From Petrimonas sulfuriphila (GTDB taxonomy: Bacteria > Bacteroidota > Bacteroidia > Bacteroidales > Dysgonomonadaceae): a stretch of 64,000 nt of DNA. Shown here in pieces: positions 55,225 through 62,644 of this stretch. The translations under genes and the position numbers were made by a program. Numbering within the stretch: the first letter of the stretch is position 1; every line of letters starts with the position of its first letter. Location of the stretch: assembly GCA_038561985.1 (NCBI GenBank), contig CP073276.1, positions 992,001 through 1,056,000 on the forward strand, read 5' to 3'. A model generated the notes under the pieces. It saw only the letters and a list, made by a program, of their open reading frames with translations, did no database searches and was not told the origin of the DNA.

Positions 55225-55974
55225 CTATTGCTTCTTCAACATATCCAGGACACCGTTAATAAACGTCAGCGGATGGGCTGGATTGCCGGGCACGTAAAGA
55301 TCGACAGGATATTTTGTCAGAAAATCCCTGTCAAGAGCCGGGCTGTCAGCAAAAATCCCTCCACTAATGGCATCAGTACCCACAAGAATAACAATTTTTG
55401 GATCAGGAACAGCGTTGTAGCAGATTTCCAGTGGACCGGCCATGTTTGCAGTAATTGGCCCGGTAATCACCACTCCGTCGGCATGACGGGGTGATGCAAC
55501 AAAGTCAATACCAAACCGGCTCATATCAAACTGCACATTATTGCACGCATTCAGCTCCAACTCACAACTATTGTCTCCTCCCGCCGACACCTGCCTTAGT
55601 TTTAGTGATTGTCCAAATAAAGAGCGCACCCCTTTTCTCACTTTTGAAGGTTCAACCACAATACCTTTATCGTCCCCTTCTTTAACAACCAGGCGTTCTC
55701 TAACGTTTGCAGACAGCTTATAGTCACTGGTGAAAGATATCTTTTCGGGAAACCTGAAAGCACATTCGCCACAAAAAGTACATTTACCCAAATCAATACA
55801 AACCGGATTTCCGGTAATCGCTCCGGTAGGACACAACTCTACCAGGGCAGCCTCATCAACCCCAGATCTTGTTATAACTGGCCTTCCCCTGAATATCCCG
55901 GGTAATTTAGCATTCGTAACGTCGGGAATATACTGTTTTCCCTGATGCCACCATATTTTTATATTTTCAAACAT
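55225..55974 (-). CDS. Ehr-like complex: ferredoxin/small-subunit fusion (HyfH-HyfI / NuoI-NuoB type)
   Basis: 249 residues. Residues about 30-85 are a ferredoxin-like module keeping one possible [4Fe-4S] set: Cys48 (ELCPTGAI) with Cys65, Cys68 and Cys71 (CTFCGEC). The cysteines of the first cluster motif are gone. Residues about 115-249 match the NuoB/HycG small subunit, with GVVITGPITANM and ISGGIF. Of the four proximal-cluster ligands only Cys137 (GGDNSCELE) remains; the others read Asp134, Asp201 (VGTDAISGG) and Asn231 (PGNPAHP). Last gene of the operon, 16 nt after the large subunit. Confidence 0.88.
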   Translation of the reverse strand: MFENIKIWWHQGKQYIPDVTNAKLPGIFRGRPVITRSGVDEAALVELCPTGAITGNPVCIDLGKCTFCGECAFRFPEKISFTSDYKLSANVRERLVVKEGDDKGIVVEPSKVRKGVRSLFGQSLKLRQVSAGGDNSCELELNACNNVQFDMSRFGIDFVASPRHADGVVITGPITANMAGPLEICYNAVPDPKIVILVGTDAISGGIFADSPALDRDFLTKYPVDLYVPGNPAHPLTFINGVLDMLKKQ

Positions 55975-55990
55975 AATTTACCGGTTTAAC

Positions 55991-57559
55991 TTACAGATCA
56001 TGTCCGCAATACGACAAATTGAAGCTCTTATTACAAATCGGAAAATCTGATATCCCATTATTCCTGACAGCCTGGGCCAATGCCATCCAGTTGTGAAAAG
56101 AAGGGTCCTTAATCTTATACAGCCCAAGGCTCCCCTCATTATCCGTAATGGCACAGTGACAAATTTCGCCCCGCCACCCCTCAACCAGCGAAAGGATGAA
56201 CATATTCCTTTGCGGGTTCAACTTAACACCGGCTACCTCTGTGAACTCGGGGATATCAGCTATCATCTTTCTGATATAGCCGATTGACTGGTGTATCTCG
56301 TCTCTTCTGAGCCTGACACGGGCATAAACATCACCGTGGTGTTTGATTACCGGTTCGTGGGTAAATCCCTCTCCAAACAGGTTAAAAGGGTGTGAGGAAC
56401 GGATATCTCTGTTCAAACCACTCATTCGTGCAGCCATGCCCACAGTCCCGATCTCAAGAACCTGTCCATAAGTTACAACTCCTGTTTTCTCGAGACGTGA
56501 CAAGGCTGATGGCAGTTTAAAGAATTTACTCGTCATCTCATTAAAGTCCAGCTCAAATTCATCCAGTATTGAAGCTAATCTCGCACCCAATTTCCGGGAA
56601 AACGGAAAATTTGTCCTCCCAGCGCGTATCAATCCTTTTGCTAAACGATTGCCTCCCCACTCCTGCAGGAAATTAATAATTGGTGTGCGTAATCTGCCAT
56701 ATACGGAGTTTCCAAGTTGATAACCGATATCAGCACAAACAGCGGACATATCACCGGTATGAATAGCAATCCGCTCCAATTCCAATGCGAGTGTTCTCGA
56801 GAAATGAAGCGAGCGGCCGGGTCTATAACCACACAAACTCTCCCATAAATTCACAAACGCAATAGTATGGCCTACTGTGGTATCACCGGCAATATTCTCT
56901 GCCAGGGTGGTCAGTTCAGCCAATTTCTTTTTTTGCAGGAACAATTGTTCTATCCCCCTGTGCTGGTATCCAAGTTGGATTTCAAGATGCATAATCTGTT
57001 CACCATTACATATAAAGCGGAAATGCCCCGGTTCAATGATGCCTGCATGTATGGGCCCAACCCCTACCTCATGAAGCTCATGGCTGTCTGCGCCAAAGAA
57101 GGGGTAGTTCTCAATTGTTTCAGCCTTACCGGCTCTATCGTGTGAATACCTGACCGGTTTGAGCCACGGATGATTGTTGTATTGAATCCCGAAGGCTTCA
57201 TGCATTTCCCTCTCATACTTCTCGAAGTTATGATTTCTGGCTGTGAATGACTCATAAACAACTTCAGGGGCAACCGTAGCTGATGATACGTAAATCTGGT
57301 GTGTCTTGTCGTCAGCGATACAACATATCAGCTTAACATTTTCGCTGTATTCTTTTCTATTTTTATTTTCATCATACTGATCTTCAACCGGCCCACCAGA
57401 TGAATAAACTCCCGTCCAGAAACCAAAATAATTTACGCAATGTCTTTCAGGAGAATCAGTCAACATACCGACATTACTTTCCAGGAACTCCTCATAAGGA
57501 AGTTCCGGAATAGAATCAAGGCTGACAGCCTGATTGTTGGATATGGAAATATATTTCAT
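55991..57559 (-). CDS. Ehr-like complex: large subunit (HycE/HyfG-like, NuoC-NuoD fusion) without NiFe ligands
   Basis: 522 residues. N-terminal NuoC-like domain to about 145 (YEREMHEAFGIQYNNHPWLKP). The rest is the NuoD/hydrogenase large-subunit fold: HLEIQLGYQHRGIEQLFLQKK, RTLALELERIAIHTGDMSAVCADIGYQ and GEICHCAITDNEGSLGLYKIKDPSF. Where hydrogenases have CGIC the sequence is Ala-Gly-Asp-Thr (224-227) before His231. The C terminus reads SFNLSYCGHDL, with no CxxC. It cannot bind a NiFe centre in the usual way and may act as in complex I or in Ehr complexes. Membrane-associated. Confidence 0.9.
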   Translation of the reverse strand: MKYISISNNQAVSLDSIPELPYEEFLESNVGMLTDSPERHCVNYFGFWTGVYSSGGPVEDQYDENKNRKEYSENVKLICCIADDKTHQIYVSSATVAPEVVYESFTARNHNFEKYEREMHEAFGIQYNNHPWLKPVRYSHDRAGKAETIENYPFFGADSHELHEVGVGPIHAGIIEPGHFRFICNGEQIMHLEIQLGYQHRGIEQLFLQKKKLAELTTLAENIAGDTTVGHTIAFVNLWESLCGYRPGRSLHFSRTLALELERIAIHTGDMSAVCADIGYQLGNSVYGRLRTPIINFLQEWGGNRLAKGLIRAGRTNFPFSRKLGARLASILDEFELDFNEMTSKFFKLPSALSRLEKTGVVTYGQVLEIGTVGMAARMSGLNRDIRSSHPFNLFGEGFTHEPVIKHHGDVYARVRLRRDEIHQSIGYIRKMIADIPEFTEVAGVKLNPQRNMFILSLVEGWRGEICHCAITDNEGSLGLYKIKDPSFHNWMALAQAVRNNGISDFPICNKSFNLSYCGHDL

Positions 57560-57632: not shown

Positions 57633-59057
57633 TTACTGAACTAGTTTTACCGATTCCTGAATTAAAACAACAAATTCAGCCGGAGGATTATAGGCCAGAT
57701 AAACCGACAGCGCTAACAAAACAAACTGCGGTAAAGACTCCCATGGGCTGATGTAAGGCAACTTGTCCTCGTTAATTTGTCCAGTAGGAGTAAATAAAAG
57801 TTTAAATATATTTACACCAAAACCCCAGATTATCAATGTAAGGAGTAGCAATACAACAACCAGTAAAACCACATAATGCGATTGAAACAGTGACTGAAAA
57901 ATCATAAACTCGCTAACAAACAGCCCTGACGGAGGCATTGCAGTAGCGGAAAGGAATCCTAAAAGTACTACAAATGCTCCGGTTTTATAATACCTGAAAT
58001 AATTTCCCAAATCATAAACACTCTTGCTTTGGTAAATGGTGTATATCTGGTTAAACTGAAAAAACAGTGTAGGTTTAATAAAAGTATGCAATATAATATG
58101 TAAAATTGCAGCGTACACGCCTACCCCTCCTGCTGCCAGCCCCAGCACAACCAATCCCATGTGTTCAATACCGGAATAAGCAAATAAACGCTTTATATTT
58201 TTTATTCGGGTCATGTAAACAGCTGCCACAAAAACCGAAAGCAAGCCTACAATAATGATAACAGAATTTGCCCATCCTTTCAACGGGGTATGGGCTACTA
58301 TAGCATAAACGCGATATATGCCAACAAAGCCAACATTCATCAATACACTTGCCAACAAAGCCCCTGCAGGCGCCGGAGCTTTGTCTTTTGCATCAATGCC
58401 TGCCGTGTACATAGGCACAAGCCCCATCTTTGCTGTAAATCCCGTGAAGATAAAGAGGAATGCAAGCTTAAGCCAGAAAACATTCAGGTTGTGATGATTC
58501 TCATACAGTACTTTAAATGACATCTCCCCAACACCTGCCGATTTGAGGGACAAACTCAAAAACAAAATACCAATATAGATAAATGTGATACTGATGGCGC
58601 AAAGGAATACATATTTCCATACTCCCTCAAGCGCACGCATACTCCGGTTATGATAAATCAGCACCGAAGCGCTCAGCGTAGTAATTTCCACAAATATCCA
58701 GGTAACAGCAATGTGGTTTGATAGATATGCCATGCAACATGATGTAATCAGCATCACCATGGCAGCAAAGAATAGCCCTCTTGCATGAGGAGCATCATTA
58801 CGGGTTGCTATAAAACGATATCCATAATAAAAAGCAGGGATGCTGACAATAGTCATAGCTATCAGCATTAATAGACCCAACGAATCAGAAGTAAAATAAA
58901 CCAATTGGGTTATTCCCTGATTAATATACTCGTAGACTGTTGTCGTTATAAGTAATGCCAGATAACCAACAACCAATAAATAATTGACTACTGCATTCCT
59001 GTTAAGGATTAAACCGATACTTACCAATACAGCTCCGGATAAAAAAATACCTGTCAT
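57633..59057 (-). CDS. Ehr-like complex: antiporter-like membrane subunit (HyfF/NuoN-type)
   Basis: 474 residues, about 13-14 membrane helices. Conserved features of the Mrp/Nuo antiporter fold: a helix with the charged Glu (TWIFVEITTLSASVLIY) and the Lys-containing GFTAKMGLVPMYTAGIDAKDKAPAPAGALLASVLMNVGF. Also IKRLFAYSGIEHMGLVVLGLAAGGVG and the broken helix before HIILHTFIKPTLFF. These suggest a working proton or sodium channel. Lies between the HyfE-like gene and the large-subunit gene. Confidence 0.92.
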   Translation of the reverse strand: MTGIFLSGAVLVSIGLILNRNAVVNYLLVVGYLALLITTTVYEYINQGITQLVYFTSDSLGLLMLIAMTIVSIPAFYYGYRFIATRNDAPHARGLFFAAMVMLITSCCMAYLSNHIAVTWIFVEITTLSASVLIYHNRSMRALEGVWKYVFLCAISITFIYIGILFLSLSLKSAGVGEMSFKVLYENHHNLNVFWLKLAFLFIFTGFTAKMGLVPMYTAGIDAKDKAPAPAGALLASVLMNVGFVGIYRVYAIVAHTPLKGWANSVIIIVGLLSVFVAAVYMTRIKNIKRLFAYSGIEHMGLVVLGLAAGGVGVYAAILHIILHTFIKPTLFFQFNQIYTIYQSKSVYDLGNYFRYYKTGAFVVLLGFLSATAMPPSGLFVSEFMIFQSLFQSHYVVLLVVVLLLLTLIIWGFGVNIFKLLFTPTGQINEDKLPYISPWESLPQFVLLALSVYLAYNPPAEFVVLIQESVKLVQ

Positions 59058-59062
59058 TGTTT

Positions 59063-59692
59063 TTAATCTTTTAAGTTAGTCAACAGGTTTACATCCGGAT
59101 CACGGATTACGTCTCCAATTTTATTGAAGAAAACTCCCAGTATAAGTACACTTGCAAAAATATCAAGCATAATTCCAAGATTTAGCAACATAGGCATCTC
59201 ATTTCCAATAGCCAGAGAAAGAACAAAAACCCCGTTTTCAATAACAAGGTATCCTACAACATGTGAGATAATCTTTTTCCTGGAGACAACTAAATACAGA
59301 CCCGTGAATAGGGTTGATAATGCCACAACAAAGAATGTTTTATCAAGATTCTTATCCTCTATTGAACCCGAGAGAATAATTGTTGATACAATAATCAGCG
59401 TAACAATAATTAATGACACAAAATTAGGAAGATAGGGTTCTGTTACGCGGGTAATTTTATTACGTTTAATCAGGTAATTCATAAACCAGGGTACGGCAAT
59501 GGCTTTAAAAACAATGGTTTCAAGCAAAACCAACAGAAGGTTTAAGGTACTTACATCGGTAAGAGTCAGGTAAGTAGTTCCAAAAAGGATCAAACCCTGC
59601 AAAACCAGTATATACAGATAGGTCTGTAACCGATCAGCAATACTCATGTAGAGCAGTGTCATGGCCAATGCAATTAATAATATATCTGTCAT
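59063..59692 (-). CDS. Ehr-like complex: HyfE-like membrane subunit
   Basis: 209 residues from the ATG at 59692 (MTDILLIALAMTLLYM); two codons upstream a TTG is possible. About six hydrophobic helices. The N-terminal half resembles HyfE and the C-terminal half a NuoK-like unit, with GYLVIENGVFVLSLAIGNEMPMLLNLGIMLDI, in which a Glu lies in the membrane. Gene spacing 5 nt to the HyfF-like gene and 11 nt to the HyfC-like gene. Confidence 0.9.
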   Translation of the reverse strand: MTDILLIALAMTLLYMSIADRLQTYLYILVLQGLILFGTTYLTLTDVSTLNLLLVLLETIVFKAIAVPWFMNYLIKRNKITRVTEPYLPNFVSLIIVTLIIVSTIILSGSIEDKNLDKTFFVVALSTLFTGLYLVVSRKKIISHVVGYLVIENGVFVLSLAIGNEMPMLLNLGIMLDIFASVLILGVFFNKIGDVIRDPDVNLLTNLKD

Positions 59693-59703
59693 AATCAATC
59701 GGT

Positions 59704-60609
59704 TTACATAAATTTACCAAGGATCAGCAATACCCCGAAAAATATCAATAAGGATAATGAGGTCAGTATAAAAATAAATTCAGGATTATGGCTCATCCTA
59801 TATCGTGCAATAAAAGATTCAATAACACCCACTGTCACGGCGAAACAAAACTGAATCAGCATAAATAATGGAATAGAAAGAATCAATGGCAAGGCTCCAA
59901 TAAAGAAATTTGAGATAATGGCACCATACATAGCAAATTTTAAATTAGTAGTAAAAGTAATTACACCCAGGTCAAATCCGCTATTATCAAGCACCATCAC
60001 CTCATGTATCATCGTCAGCTCCAGGTGAGTCTTAGGGTCATCAAAAGGCATTCTGCTATTTTCAATCATAGCAATCATTACCAGCACAAATGTGGCCAAT
60101 CCCCCTAACATATAAGAGATATATGAACCAAAATCAAGTGCATTAAAGATGCTACTGAATGATGTATGGCCTGTAAATAAAGCAAAAGAACCCATTAATA
60201 TAAAGAACGCAGGCTCCGCAAGCATGGCGAACAGTGCTTCACGGCTTGCCCCCATTCCTTCAAAGCTACTTCCCGTATCAAGAGCCGAAACTATGATCAG
60301 AAATTTACCTAACGCCAACAGATAAGCGAACATCACAAAGTCACCGCTAAAAGAAATAACACCCGGATGAACACCATGCGGCAGCATTAATATAGCCATC
60401 AATACAGAGGCCAAGTAAACAGTTGGAGCGATCTGAAATATAAAGCTGGTTGTTTTGCTATAGACACTTCCCTTTTTCAATAGTCTAATTATATCTTTCA
60501 TATTCTGCATAATACCTGGGCCCTTGCGTCCTGAAGCTATGCTCTTTGTTCGGGTTACTATCCCAACAAAAAAGATACTGGCGAATATGATTAAAATGAC
60601 ACTTACCAT
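59704..60609 (-). CDS. Ehr-like complex: NuoH/HyfC-like membrane anchor
   Basis: 301 residues, about 8 helices. Conserved DDPKTHLELTMIHEVMVLDNSGFDLGVI loop, the signature of HyfC/EchB/NuoH proteins, on the cytoplasmic side at the junction with the hydrophilic arm. GRKGPGIMQNMKDIIRLLKK near the N terminus is also typical of the hydrogenase branch. It connects redox events to the antiporter subunits. One base separates its ATG from the stop of the HyfB-like gene. Confidence 0.93.
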   Translation of the reverse strand: MVSVILIIFASIFFVGIVTRTKSIASGRKGPGIMQNMKDIIRLLKKGSVYSKTTSFIFQIAPTVYLASVLMAILMLPHGVHPGVISFSGDFVMFAYLLALGKFLIIVSALDTGSSFEGMGASREALFAMLAEPAFFILMGSFALFTGHTSFSSIFNALDFGSYISYMLGGLATFVLVMIAMIENSRMPFDDPKTHLELTMIHEVMVLDNSGFDLGVITFTTNLKFAMYGAIISNFFIGALPLILSIPLFMLIQFCFAVTVGVIESFIARYRMSHNPEFIFILTSLSLLIFFGVLLILGKFM

Positions 60610-60610
60610 C

Positions 60611-62644
60611 CTATAATTGATTTAAGAAATTTACCAGTTCAATGATCTTTTCTACGATCACAGGTAACAAGATTGTGAGTCCTACAAAAACAAAGCCGTA
60701 TAAAATATATGCCTGAATATGGCCGTTTTGCAGAAATGTAAAACGTTTCAGGAAACTCCTTATAAACAACAACGGTTTATCAATTAACCAATATTCTATT
60801 TTATCATATGGGTGTGTTGCCTGGCTTATTCTGTCCGGATACAACCCGGCAGCTTCGTTCTTCTTTCTTTTAATCATCAAAACAGGCTCTGCGAGTTTAC
60901 GATAGGTTCTGACAAATGAAGAAGCGGTGTACTGTGTTTTTTCAGCACTTCCGGTATAACCACACCCCCAGGTAACGTCAGAAGCCTGGCTGCGTTTTGC
61001 GGTAACCAGTTTCCTTATAAAATAAAGCAACGCGGTTAACCCAATAAAACCTAACGAGTACCATCCTATCGCGGTCAGGCTCTGTAACGTATTGCTTAAT
61101 TCAAATGTCGCCTGAGTTCCTGACTCCGGGAGGAATAAGTACACTGTTTTAATAAGCATGGGTCCAAACAAAACAGGAAATACGCCAATAATAAGTATAA
61201 ACAAGGCAATAAGATATAGCGGTGCGGCTTTAATGAGACTTTCATTAACCGGAGCTAAAGGCTTTGATGAACGCGGATTGCCAAGGAACACTACTCCAAA
61301 TGCTTTTGTAAAGCAAATCAATGCCAAGCCACCGATCAACACCAACCCCAAAATCGCAAAAAGTATAAAAAGTATAAACAAAAAATTATTGGATATCAAC
61401 CCATTGAACAGGCCATTATAAATAAAAAACTCGGATACAAATCCATTAAAAGGGGGTAATCCACATATTGCCAATGAAGCAATTAAAAATAAATATCCAG
61501 AGTGCGGCATCTTTCGGATAAGCCCACCCAAGGTATCTATTTCCAGATTGTGAGTCGCCTGGTATACATTACCTGAAACGTAAAACAACAAGGACTTAAA
61601 TAACGAATGATTGAGTACATGCAATAATCCACCTCCGAACCCACTGGCTACTAATAGCGGATTATTGTATCCAATACCCAGGCAACCCAACCCTATACCT
61701 ATACCAATAATCCCGATATTCTCAATACTGTGATAGGCCAGCAACCGTTTCAGGTTATGCTGCACTATAGCTAACATCACTCCATATACACCTGTCATGA
61801 CTGAGATGAACAAAATAAAATAGCCTATAAAAACCATGTCACATTTTATTAACAATACCATCCTCAGTATCCCGTATATACCAATCTTGATAATTACTCC
61901 CGACATTACACCTGAAACATGTGCAGGAGCAGCCGGATGTGCTAGGGGCAACCAGGTGTGAAACGGCACAAACCCCGCTTTGATAGCAAATCCACAAAAG
62001 AAAAAAATAAATAATCCAACAGCAATAGCAGCCGGTTGGGTATAGGTTGAAGAAGAGATAGCAGCGAAATCAAAAGTACCTGTATTAACCTTTACCATCA
62101 TAATGGCAATGGTTAGAAACAAAATAGAAACATGTGATTGTATCAGGAAATTAATTCCAGCCTTCAAGGTCCTGATCTTATAATGTTCAAAAATTACCAG
62201 AACGAAAGAACTCAGCGCCATAACCTCCCACAAAATAAGAAACACAAGGCCGTTCTGAACCAGGCAGATATCAACCAATGCAGTATATGCCAGCAAGTAA
62301 GCAGCAGCATGAGAGGCTAAATTACCTGACTGACTCTTATAAGCCATCATGTACCTGATACCATACCAGGCTCCTGTTGCGAAAGTAAAACTGATTATCA
62401 GCACAAACCAAGCCGATAAATAATCAATCCTTACCGGTATCTCTCCCGTAACCCATGAACCGCGATAATAAAATTCAATCAATCCATTGTTAAATACAGA
62501 AATTGCTACCACAGATGCAATAATCACCTGTATTGTTATCACACTAACGGCAAGTATACCCTTTCCTTTTGTTTTAAAAAGAGGAAAACATAAAATTGCA
62601 CCTATCGCAATTAGATTTAACAACTCTACTAAGAATTTTTCCAT
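60611..62644 (-). CDS. Ehr-like complex: HyfB-like antiporter membrane subunit
   Basis: 677 residues, about 16 helices. Charged channel residues are present: FLILWEVMALSSFVLVIFEHY (Glu) and FCGFAIKAGFVPFHTWLPLAHPAAPAHVSGVMSGVIIKIGIYG (two Lys). LLAYHSIENIGIIGIGIGLG and HVLNHSLFKSLLFYVSG also match HyfB/NuoL. First gene of the minus-strand operon. It is read from an AT-rich 370-nt region in which I see no exact TAnnTTTG box, only two near matches. Confidence 0.93.
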   Translation of the reverse strand: MEKFLVELLNLIAIGAILCFPLFKTKGKGILAVSVITIQVIIASVVAISVFNNGLIEFYYRGSWVTGEIPVRIDYLSAWFVLIISFTFATGAWYGIRYMMAYKSQSGNLASHAAAYLLAYTALVDICLVQNGLVFLILWEVMALSSFVLVIFEHYKIRTLKAGINFLIQSHVSILFLTIAIMMVKVNTGTFDFAAISSSTYTQPAAIAVGLFIFFFCGFAIKAGFVPFHTWLPLAHPAAPAHVSGVMSGVIIKIGIYGILRMVLLIKCDMVFIGYFILFISVMTGVYGVMLAIVQHNLKRLLAYHSIENIGIIGIGIGLGCLGIGYNNPLLVASGFGGGLLHVLNHSLFKSLLFYVSGNVYQATHNLEIDTLGGLIRKMPHSGYLFLIASLAICGLPPFNGFVSEFFIYNGLFNGLISNNFLFILFILFAILGLVLIGGLALICFTKAFGVVFLGNPRSSKPLAPVNESLIKAAPLYLIALFILIIGVFPVLFGPMLIKTVYLFLPESGTQATFELSNTLQSLTAIGWYSLGFIGLTALLYFIRKLVTAKRSQASDVTWGCGYTGSAEKTQYTASSFVRTYRKLAEPVLMIKRKKNEAAGLYPDRISQATHPYDKIEYWLIDKPLLFIRSFLKRFTFLQNGHIQAYILYGFVFVGLTILLPVIVEKIIELVNFLNQL

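Follow-up and report, generated by a model that had tools for sequence, protein, structure and literature searches.

The Petrimonas window analysed here (64,000 nucleotides, positions 992001-1056000 of a 3.83 Mb single-contig genome) encodes a complete relative of the respiratory proton pump in which both the NiFe site of the large subunit and the proximal [4Fe-4S] (N2-position) cluster of the small subunit have been replaced by conserved residues that should hold neither. The complex may therefore move ions without the electron transfer that drives its relatives, although its reaction is unproven. By sequence it is an energy-converting hydrogenase-related (Ehr) complex, encoded by a six-gene operon whose proteins are 97-100% identical to those of Petrimonas sp. 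IBARAKI.

The six genes run head to tail on the minus strand. The first encodes a HyfB/NuoL-like antiporter-type subunit (60611-62644, 677 aa; NF005086 HyfB, E 1.8e-138, below that model's curated cut-off), followed by a HyfC/NuoH-like subunit (59704-60609, 301 aa; PF00146, 2.7e-31), a HyfE-like membrane subunit (59063-59698, 211 aa; NF008556, 1.2e-15, below cut-off) and a HyfF/NuoN-like antiporter-type subunit (57633-59057, 474 aa; PF00361, 2.1e-39). The large subunit (55991-57559, 522 aa; PF00346, 1.8e-28 and PF00329, 1.9e-5) has fused 30-kDa and 49-kDa domains, and the small subunit (55225-55974, 249 aa) is a ferredoxin-like domain (Fer4, 18.6 bits, below its cut-off of 21.1) fused to a NuoB/HycG-like domain (PF01058, 4.6e-21). 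AlphaFold2 predicts confident folds for the small and large subunits (pLDDT 88.6 and 85.1), with HycG (7z0s_G) and HycE (7z0s_E), respectively, as the best PDB matches. A promoter scan was at chance, and terminator-like sites numbered 11 against 7.5 +/- 2.8 in shuffles.

To place the operon in its genomic context, we searched the host genome for related systems. There is only one PF00346 protein and one NuoB-family match, the small subunit itself. HypD, the only Hyp protein searched, gave no match, while the same search was positive in 4 of 14 control genomes. The genome thus shows no complex I and lacks a protein needed to build a NiFe site. It does have an RnfC-type hit and two HndC-type hits to PF01512 (types judged by frame length), two NQR2/RnfD/RnfE-type hits and three [FeFe]-hydrogenase domain hits. 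The flanking PfkB kinase and ABC-3 permease are not conserved neighbours.

The preliminary description had noted the loss of both halves of the NiFe site within a group 4-like operon and proposed an Ehr complex, and our analysis confirms the first point and supports the second. A224-G225-D226-T227 (56879-56890) aligns without gaps to C241-G-I-C244 of E. coli HycE, and S516 and G519, within the C-terminal SFNLSYCGHDL (residues 512-522; 55994-56026), align to C531 and C534; HyfG gives the same picture. C518 lies at HycE S533, one position off the C534 ligand, and is C, S or A in relatives (66/12/4 of 82), so that it does not replace a ligand. The protein ends one residue after D521, at the position of HycE R537, while HycE itself runs to 569 aa. 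These changes are not due to chance: among 82 large subunits of the clade (the window, 80 loci retrieved with the large subunit alone, and one further locus, L144), G225, D226, S516, Y517, D521 and L522 are invariant, A224 is A or V, T227 is T, S or N, G519 is G in 81 and A in 1, and no row has Cys at any of the four ligand positions. The acid of the beta1-beta2 loop, E176 (57032-57034; HycE E193, MbhL E21), is present in 82 of 82, and H179, at the MbhL K24 position, in 77 of 82. In Mbh, Glu21, Lys24 and Asp379 are proposed coupling steps (PMC11228991); equating Asp379 with D521 is our inference from spacing. The window protein also has an insert of roughly 22 residues in its N-terminal domain (about residues 48-69; 57353-57418) that is modelled at low confidence and is absent or nearly so from the other 19 rows of one alignment; two of the retrieved loci (L003, that of strain IBARAKI, and L004) have the length of the window protein.

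The small subunit, which was not mentioned in the preliminary description, has lost the proximal cluster as well. At the four proximal-cluster Cys of HycG (C48, C51, C115 and C145), whose cluster occupies the N2 position of complex I (PMC9474812), it has D134 and C137 (both within D134-N-S-C137, 55564-55575), D201 (55372-55374) and N231 (55282-55284). The 80 loci were retrieved without regard to the small subunit; 74 hold one in the fetched stretch, 72 cover the site, and all 72 have Asp at sites 1 and 3 and Asn at site 4. Together with the window, L144 and three additional loci (L168-L170), this amounts to 77 of 77 covered rows, while C137 drifts and is kept in only 63 of 77. By contrast, the ferredoxin-like domain keeps one four-Cys set, C48 (55831-55833; 79 of 79 rows) and C65-x2-C68-x2-C71 (55762-55782; 77 of 77 covered rows), but in the window lacks the Cys of the other motif. 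One [4Fe-4S] cluster is therefore encoded, where fuller relatives such as that on Variovorax sp. PBL-E5 plasmid 3 (L083 3466-20735, where two different Ehr operons lie next to each other, one with a ferredoxin-fused small subunit) appear to encode three. Some N2-intact relatives (L147, L149 and L155) also lack this second ferredoxin motif, so its loss is separate.

We next asked how unusual the ligand swap is, using homologous operons from Bacteroidota, from the phylum of a Fibrobacterales-named MAG, and from plasmids. In Bacteroidota, 15 of 395 genomes have matches with E below 1e-90, of which 13 are intact at the four sites and 2 are N2-less; both weaker matches (about 1e-55) are intact. In the second phylum, 9 of 60 genomes match, 8 intact and 1 N2-less. 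A contig titled Fibrobacterales (L063) carries an N2-less operon that nests among Bacteroidales rows in the tree, indicating transfer or mis-binning. Of 16 plasmid regions, 12 are intact and 3 have lost the ligands: two near-identical operon copies on the Allomeiothermus silvanus plasmid (L084 and L093; T/D/E/S) and one in Mycobacterium branderi (N/D/D/A). The remaining one, a Streptomyces plasmid small subunit (L133 8833-9357), has Arg at site 1 and no other Ehr gene in the 18 kb stretch. For a residue-by-residue comparison we used 24 rows (L083, L145-L167) that were sorted as intact by these very sites, so that their Cys content is by construction; they too have no Cys at the NiFe positions. 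With the same filter (at least 93% in the clade, at most 10% in the comparators), only one other small-subunit position, N90, separates the groups, compared to 10 in the large subunit, 3 in HyfB, 8 in HyfC, 6 in HyfE and 9 in HyfF. Four N2-intact operons (L154, L156, L157 and L162) have two HyfB-type genes side by side, which could lengthen the membrane arm.

The N2-less form is common in Bacteroidales and not a curiosity of one genome. With a profile built from N2-less rows, 67 of 295 genomes match at 1e-50 or better, in 53 of 184 genera. Of their 68 matches, 65 (64 genomes) are N2-less and 3 intact (the 70 loci recovered include two from a scan of the genus, where 3 of 10 genomes match). Within the 65, site 1 is Asp (Glu in 2), site 3 is Asp (Glu in 1), site 4 is Asn, and 16 have no Cys at any of the four sites. 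Of the 64 N2-less genomes, many of them drafts, 21 have no other NuoB-family match at E <= 1e-10, 40 have one stronger than 1e-41 and 3 an intermediate one, so the complex neither requires nor excludes complex I.

A 59-row tree of the large subunit (IQ-TREE, LG+C20) places 21 N2-less rows in one clade (support 90/79, not starred), with the N2-intact L145 as sister (the 22 rows 100/100) and N2-intact lineages around them, making one loss for this clade the simplest account. Grouping Allomeiothermus or M. branderi with the clade is rejected by AU tests (p-AU 0.0005 and 0.003), so the ligands were lost at least three times, with the caution that both are long branches. Interestingly, in each loss exactly two of the four sites are acidic, and site 3 is acidic in all three; however, this pattern rests on three origins, two of which are plasmid operons of one organism each. 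In the same tree, 56 rows (55 with no Cys at the four NiFe sites, M. branderi with one) stand apart from HycE/HyfG (100/98) and NuoCD; the branch that joins the 56 is 90/87, and long branches meet at the root.

The canonical proton-path residues are at least 99% conserved in the clade: HyfB E140, K222, K350 and E405 (NuoL E144, K229, K342 and K399) are 100% in the rows that cover them, HyfF E124 is 99% and K210 and E383 are 100% (NuoM E144, K234 and E407), and HyfC E132, D190 and E197 (NuoH E157, D213 and E220) are 100%. HyfE K65, E154 and D179 are also 100% conserved. HyfC K193 (60031-60033), at the position of NuoH E216, is Lys in all 64 clade rows and Asn in 15 of roughly 21 comparators, another clade-specific change, in a subunit that borders the interface. 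Pairwise dN/dS is 0.01-0.11 for the large and small subunits in clade pairs where dS was estimable, indicating purifying selection, although the two closest pairs with the window give 0.12-0.38 from few changes. In four Bacteroidales MAGs (isolate names Nc350, Cc175 and Kf353; a termite-gut source is our guess), a large subunit occurs alone (L060, L061, L062 and L074), which at first looked like loss of the complex. However, the small subunit lies elsewhere in three of the four genomes, and an Ehr-type HyfC in all four (462-474 bits with the clade profile, compared to 38 for E. coli NuoH), showing that the operon is scattered; for the genome of L074, no small subunit was found. In one locus (L010 6531-9464), HyfF and the large subunit share one open reading frame of 977 codons, a fusion or an assembly error. 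To obtain clues to the substrate, we also examined 358 flanking ORFs (90 aa or more, within 5 kb) of the 80 loci, but no family recurs in more than 5 loci. ORFs inserted between operon genes in some loci looked, by eye only, like mobile or unrelated genes rather than subunits.

Taken together, these data are best explained by an Ehr complex whose peripheral arm no longer delivers electrons to the arm-membrane interface. We infer that no cubane cluster forms at the N2 position, that the membrane arm still translocates ions and, because the relay lacks one hop, that the large-subunit cavity is not driven by electrons from the remaining cluster. The electron hops in formate hydrogenlyase are each under 14 Å (PMC9474812), so dropping one should leave too long a jump, although this is inference and not a measured distance. 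We consider it most likely, with a probability of about 0.5, that the Asp/Asp/Asn site, together with the remodelled large-subunit pocket (D226, S516, Y517 and D521), binds a metal ion or small ligand, or carries a fixed negative charge in place of the cluster, and that its binding or protonation moves the beta1-beta2 loop (E176), which in Mbh is proposed to start ion movement. The complex would then be a ligand-gated or redox-sensing ion translocator rather than a redox-driven one, with the remaining cluster as a sensor or docking element. The charge argument is that an oxidised [4Fe-4S](Cys)4 probably carries about -2, as do two carboxylates. This reading rests on sequence without any biochemistry; the structure models are single chains, the pocket is inferred from alignment, and the D134-C137 loop is modelled with modest confidence (pLDDT about 67). 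More tentatively, a widespread clade of complex I-superfamily machines may translocate ions without electron transfer at this interface, the cluster having been exchanged for a site that binds a redox-inert metal or ligand or mimics its charge, with a similar exchange to two carboxylates at least three times. If so, ion pumping in this superfamily can be driven or gated by non-redox chemistry. How redox chemistry at the interface drives distant pumps is a central question for complex I, and a natural lineage that kept the key pump residues but removed both redox centres there, with sister lineages that removed only one, separates what the pump needs from what the chemistry needs.

The main alternative, which we regard as possible but less likely, is that the complex is still a ferredoxin-linked redox pump, in which electrons enter at the remaining [4Fe-4S] cluster and go to an unknown substrate or to a non-cubane metal at the Asp/Asp/Asn site, close enough for one hop. 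The conservation of all four Cys of this cluster in every covered row argues that electrons still matter somewhere, the cluster kept is probably the one whose complex I counterpart lies nearest N2, and the RnfC-, NQR2/RnfD/RnfE-type and [FeFe]-hydrogenase hits make ferredoxin-based metabolism likely in the host. However, no relative appears to use such a site, O-rich ligands suit redox-inert ions better, and the flanking ORFs reveal no conserved partner oxidoreductase beside the operon. That the peripheral arm is degenerate or a mere scaffold, and the membrane arm works as a Mrp-like secondary antiporter, would fit the conserved membrane residues and the absence of an encoded redox centre at the interface, but is unlikely given that the large and small subunits are constrained, keep their pocket residues and are both retained in three of the four genomes with scattered operons.

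Assembly of a cubane cluster with Asp/Cys/Asp/Asn ligands is very doubtful. Single Asp ligands to [4Fe-4S] clusters do seem to occur in other proteins, but here three of four ligands are non-Cys, and the last Cys is absent in 14 of 77 rows of one set and 16 of 65 of another, possibly overlapping set, leaving no thiolate at those sites. Finally, a working group 4 [NiFe] hydrogenase or quinone reductase, as the overall fold and operon might suggest, is already contradicted by the absence of NiFe Cys and of a HypD match in the genome, by the alignment of G225 to the Tyr of E. coli NuoCD in the first motif (probably the quinone-site Tyr), and by the loss of the N2 ligands.

Ehr complexes (Coppi 2005; Marreiros 2013) are described as lacking the NiFe ligands (PMC10284858, PMC7304191, PMC6349859, PMC4378227, PMC10432482), and their function is called unknown or undetermined in several studies (PMC10284858, PMC4378227, PMC10432482, PMC6728331). 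There is a possible formate link in Geobacter from protein abundance, a proposed formate-dehydrogenase partner in lineages near Cyanobacteria (PMC6349859) and a pH-homeostasis suggestion in Methylacidiphilum; the present lineage would give a concrete handle on what these common complexes are for. Loss of the N2-position ligands in Ehr is not mentioned in the passages we consulted, which did not include the two founding papers, so that its novelty is probable rather than proven. The window operon shares with Ehr complexes the hyfBCEF-large-small layout, the loss of the NiFe ligands and the xGD[TS] and NKSFxLSYxGxDL-type motifs, but most other Ehr small subunits sampled keep four N2-position Cys, while this clade has Asp/x/Asp/Asn. 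With regard to E. coli formate hydrogenlyase and hydrogenase-4 (HycE-HycG, HyfG-HyfI), HycE and HycG head the fold matches, HycE/MbhL and MbhJ/HycG head the sequence matches and the beta1-beta2 loop Glu is kept, but there is no NiFe site and there are no proximal-cluster ligands, and the flanking genes searched are not formate dehydrogenase or Hyp genes. Respiratory complex I (NuoBCD, H, K, L/M/N) has a homologous core, with the NuoL, NuoM and NuoH proton-path equivalents kept, but the operon has no NADH module, no N2 ligands and apparently no quinone-site Tyr, and the NuoH E216 position is Lys193. Mrp cation/proton antiporters share the antiporter-type subunits but seem to have no NuoB/NuoCD-type peripheral arm.
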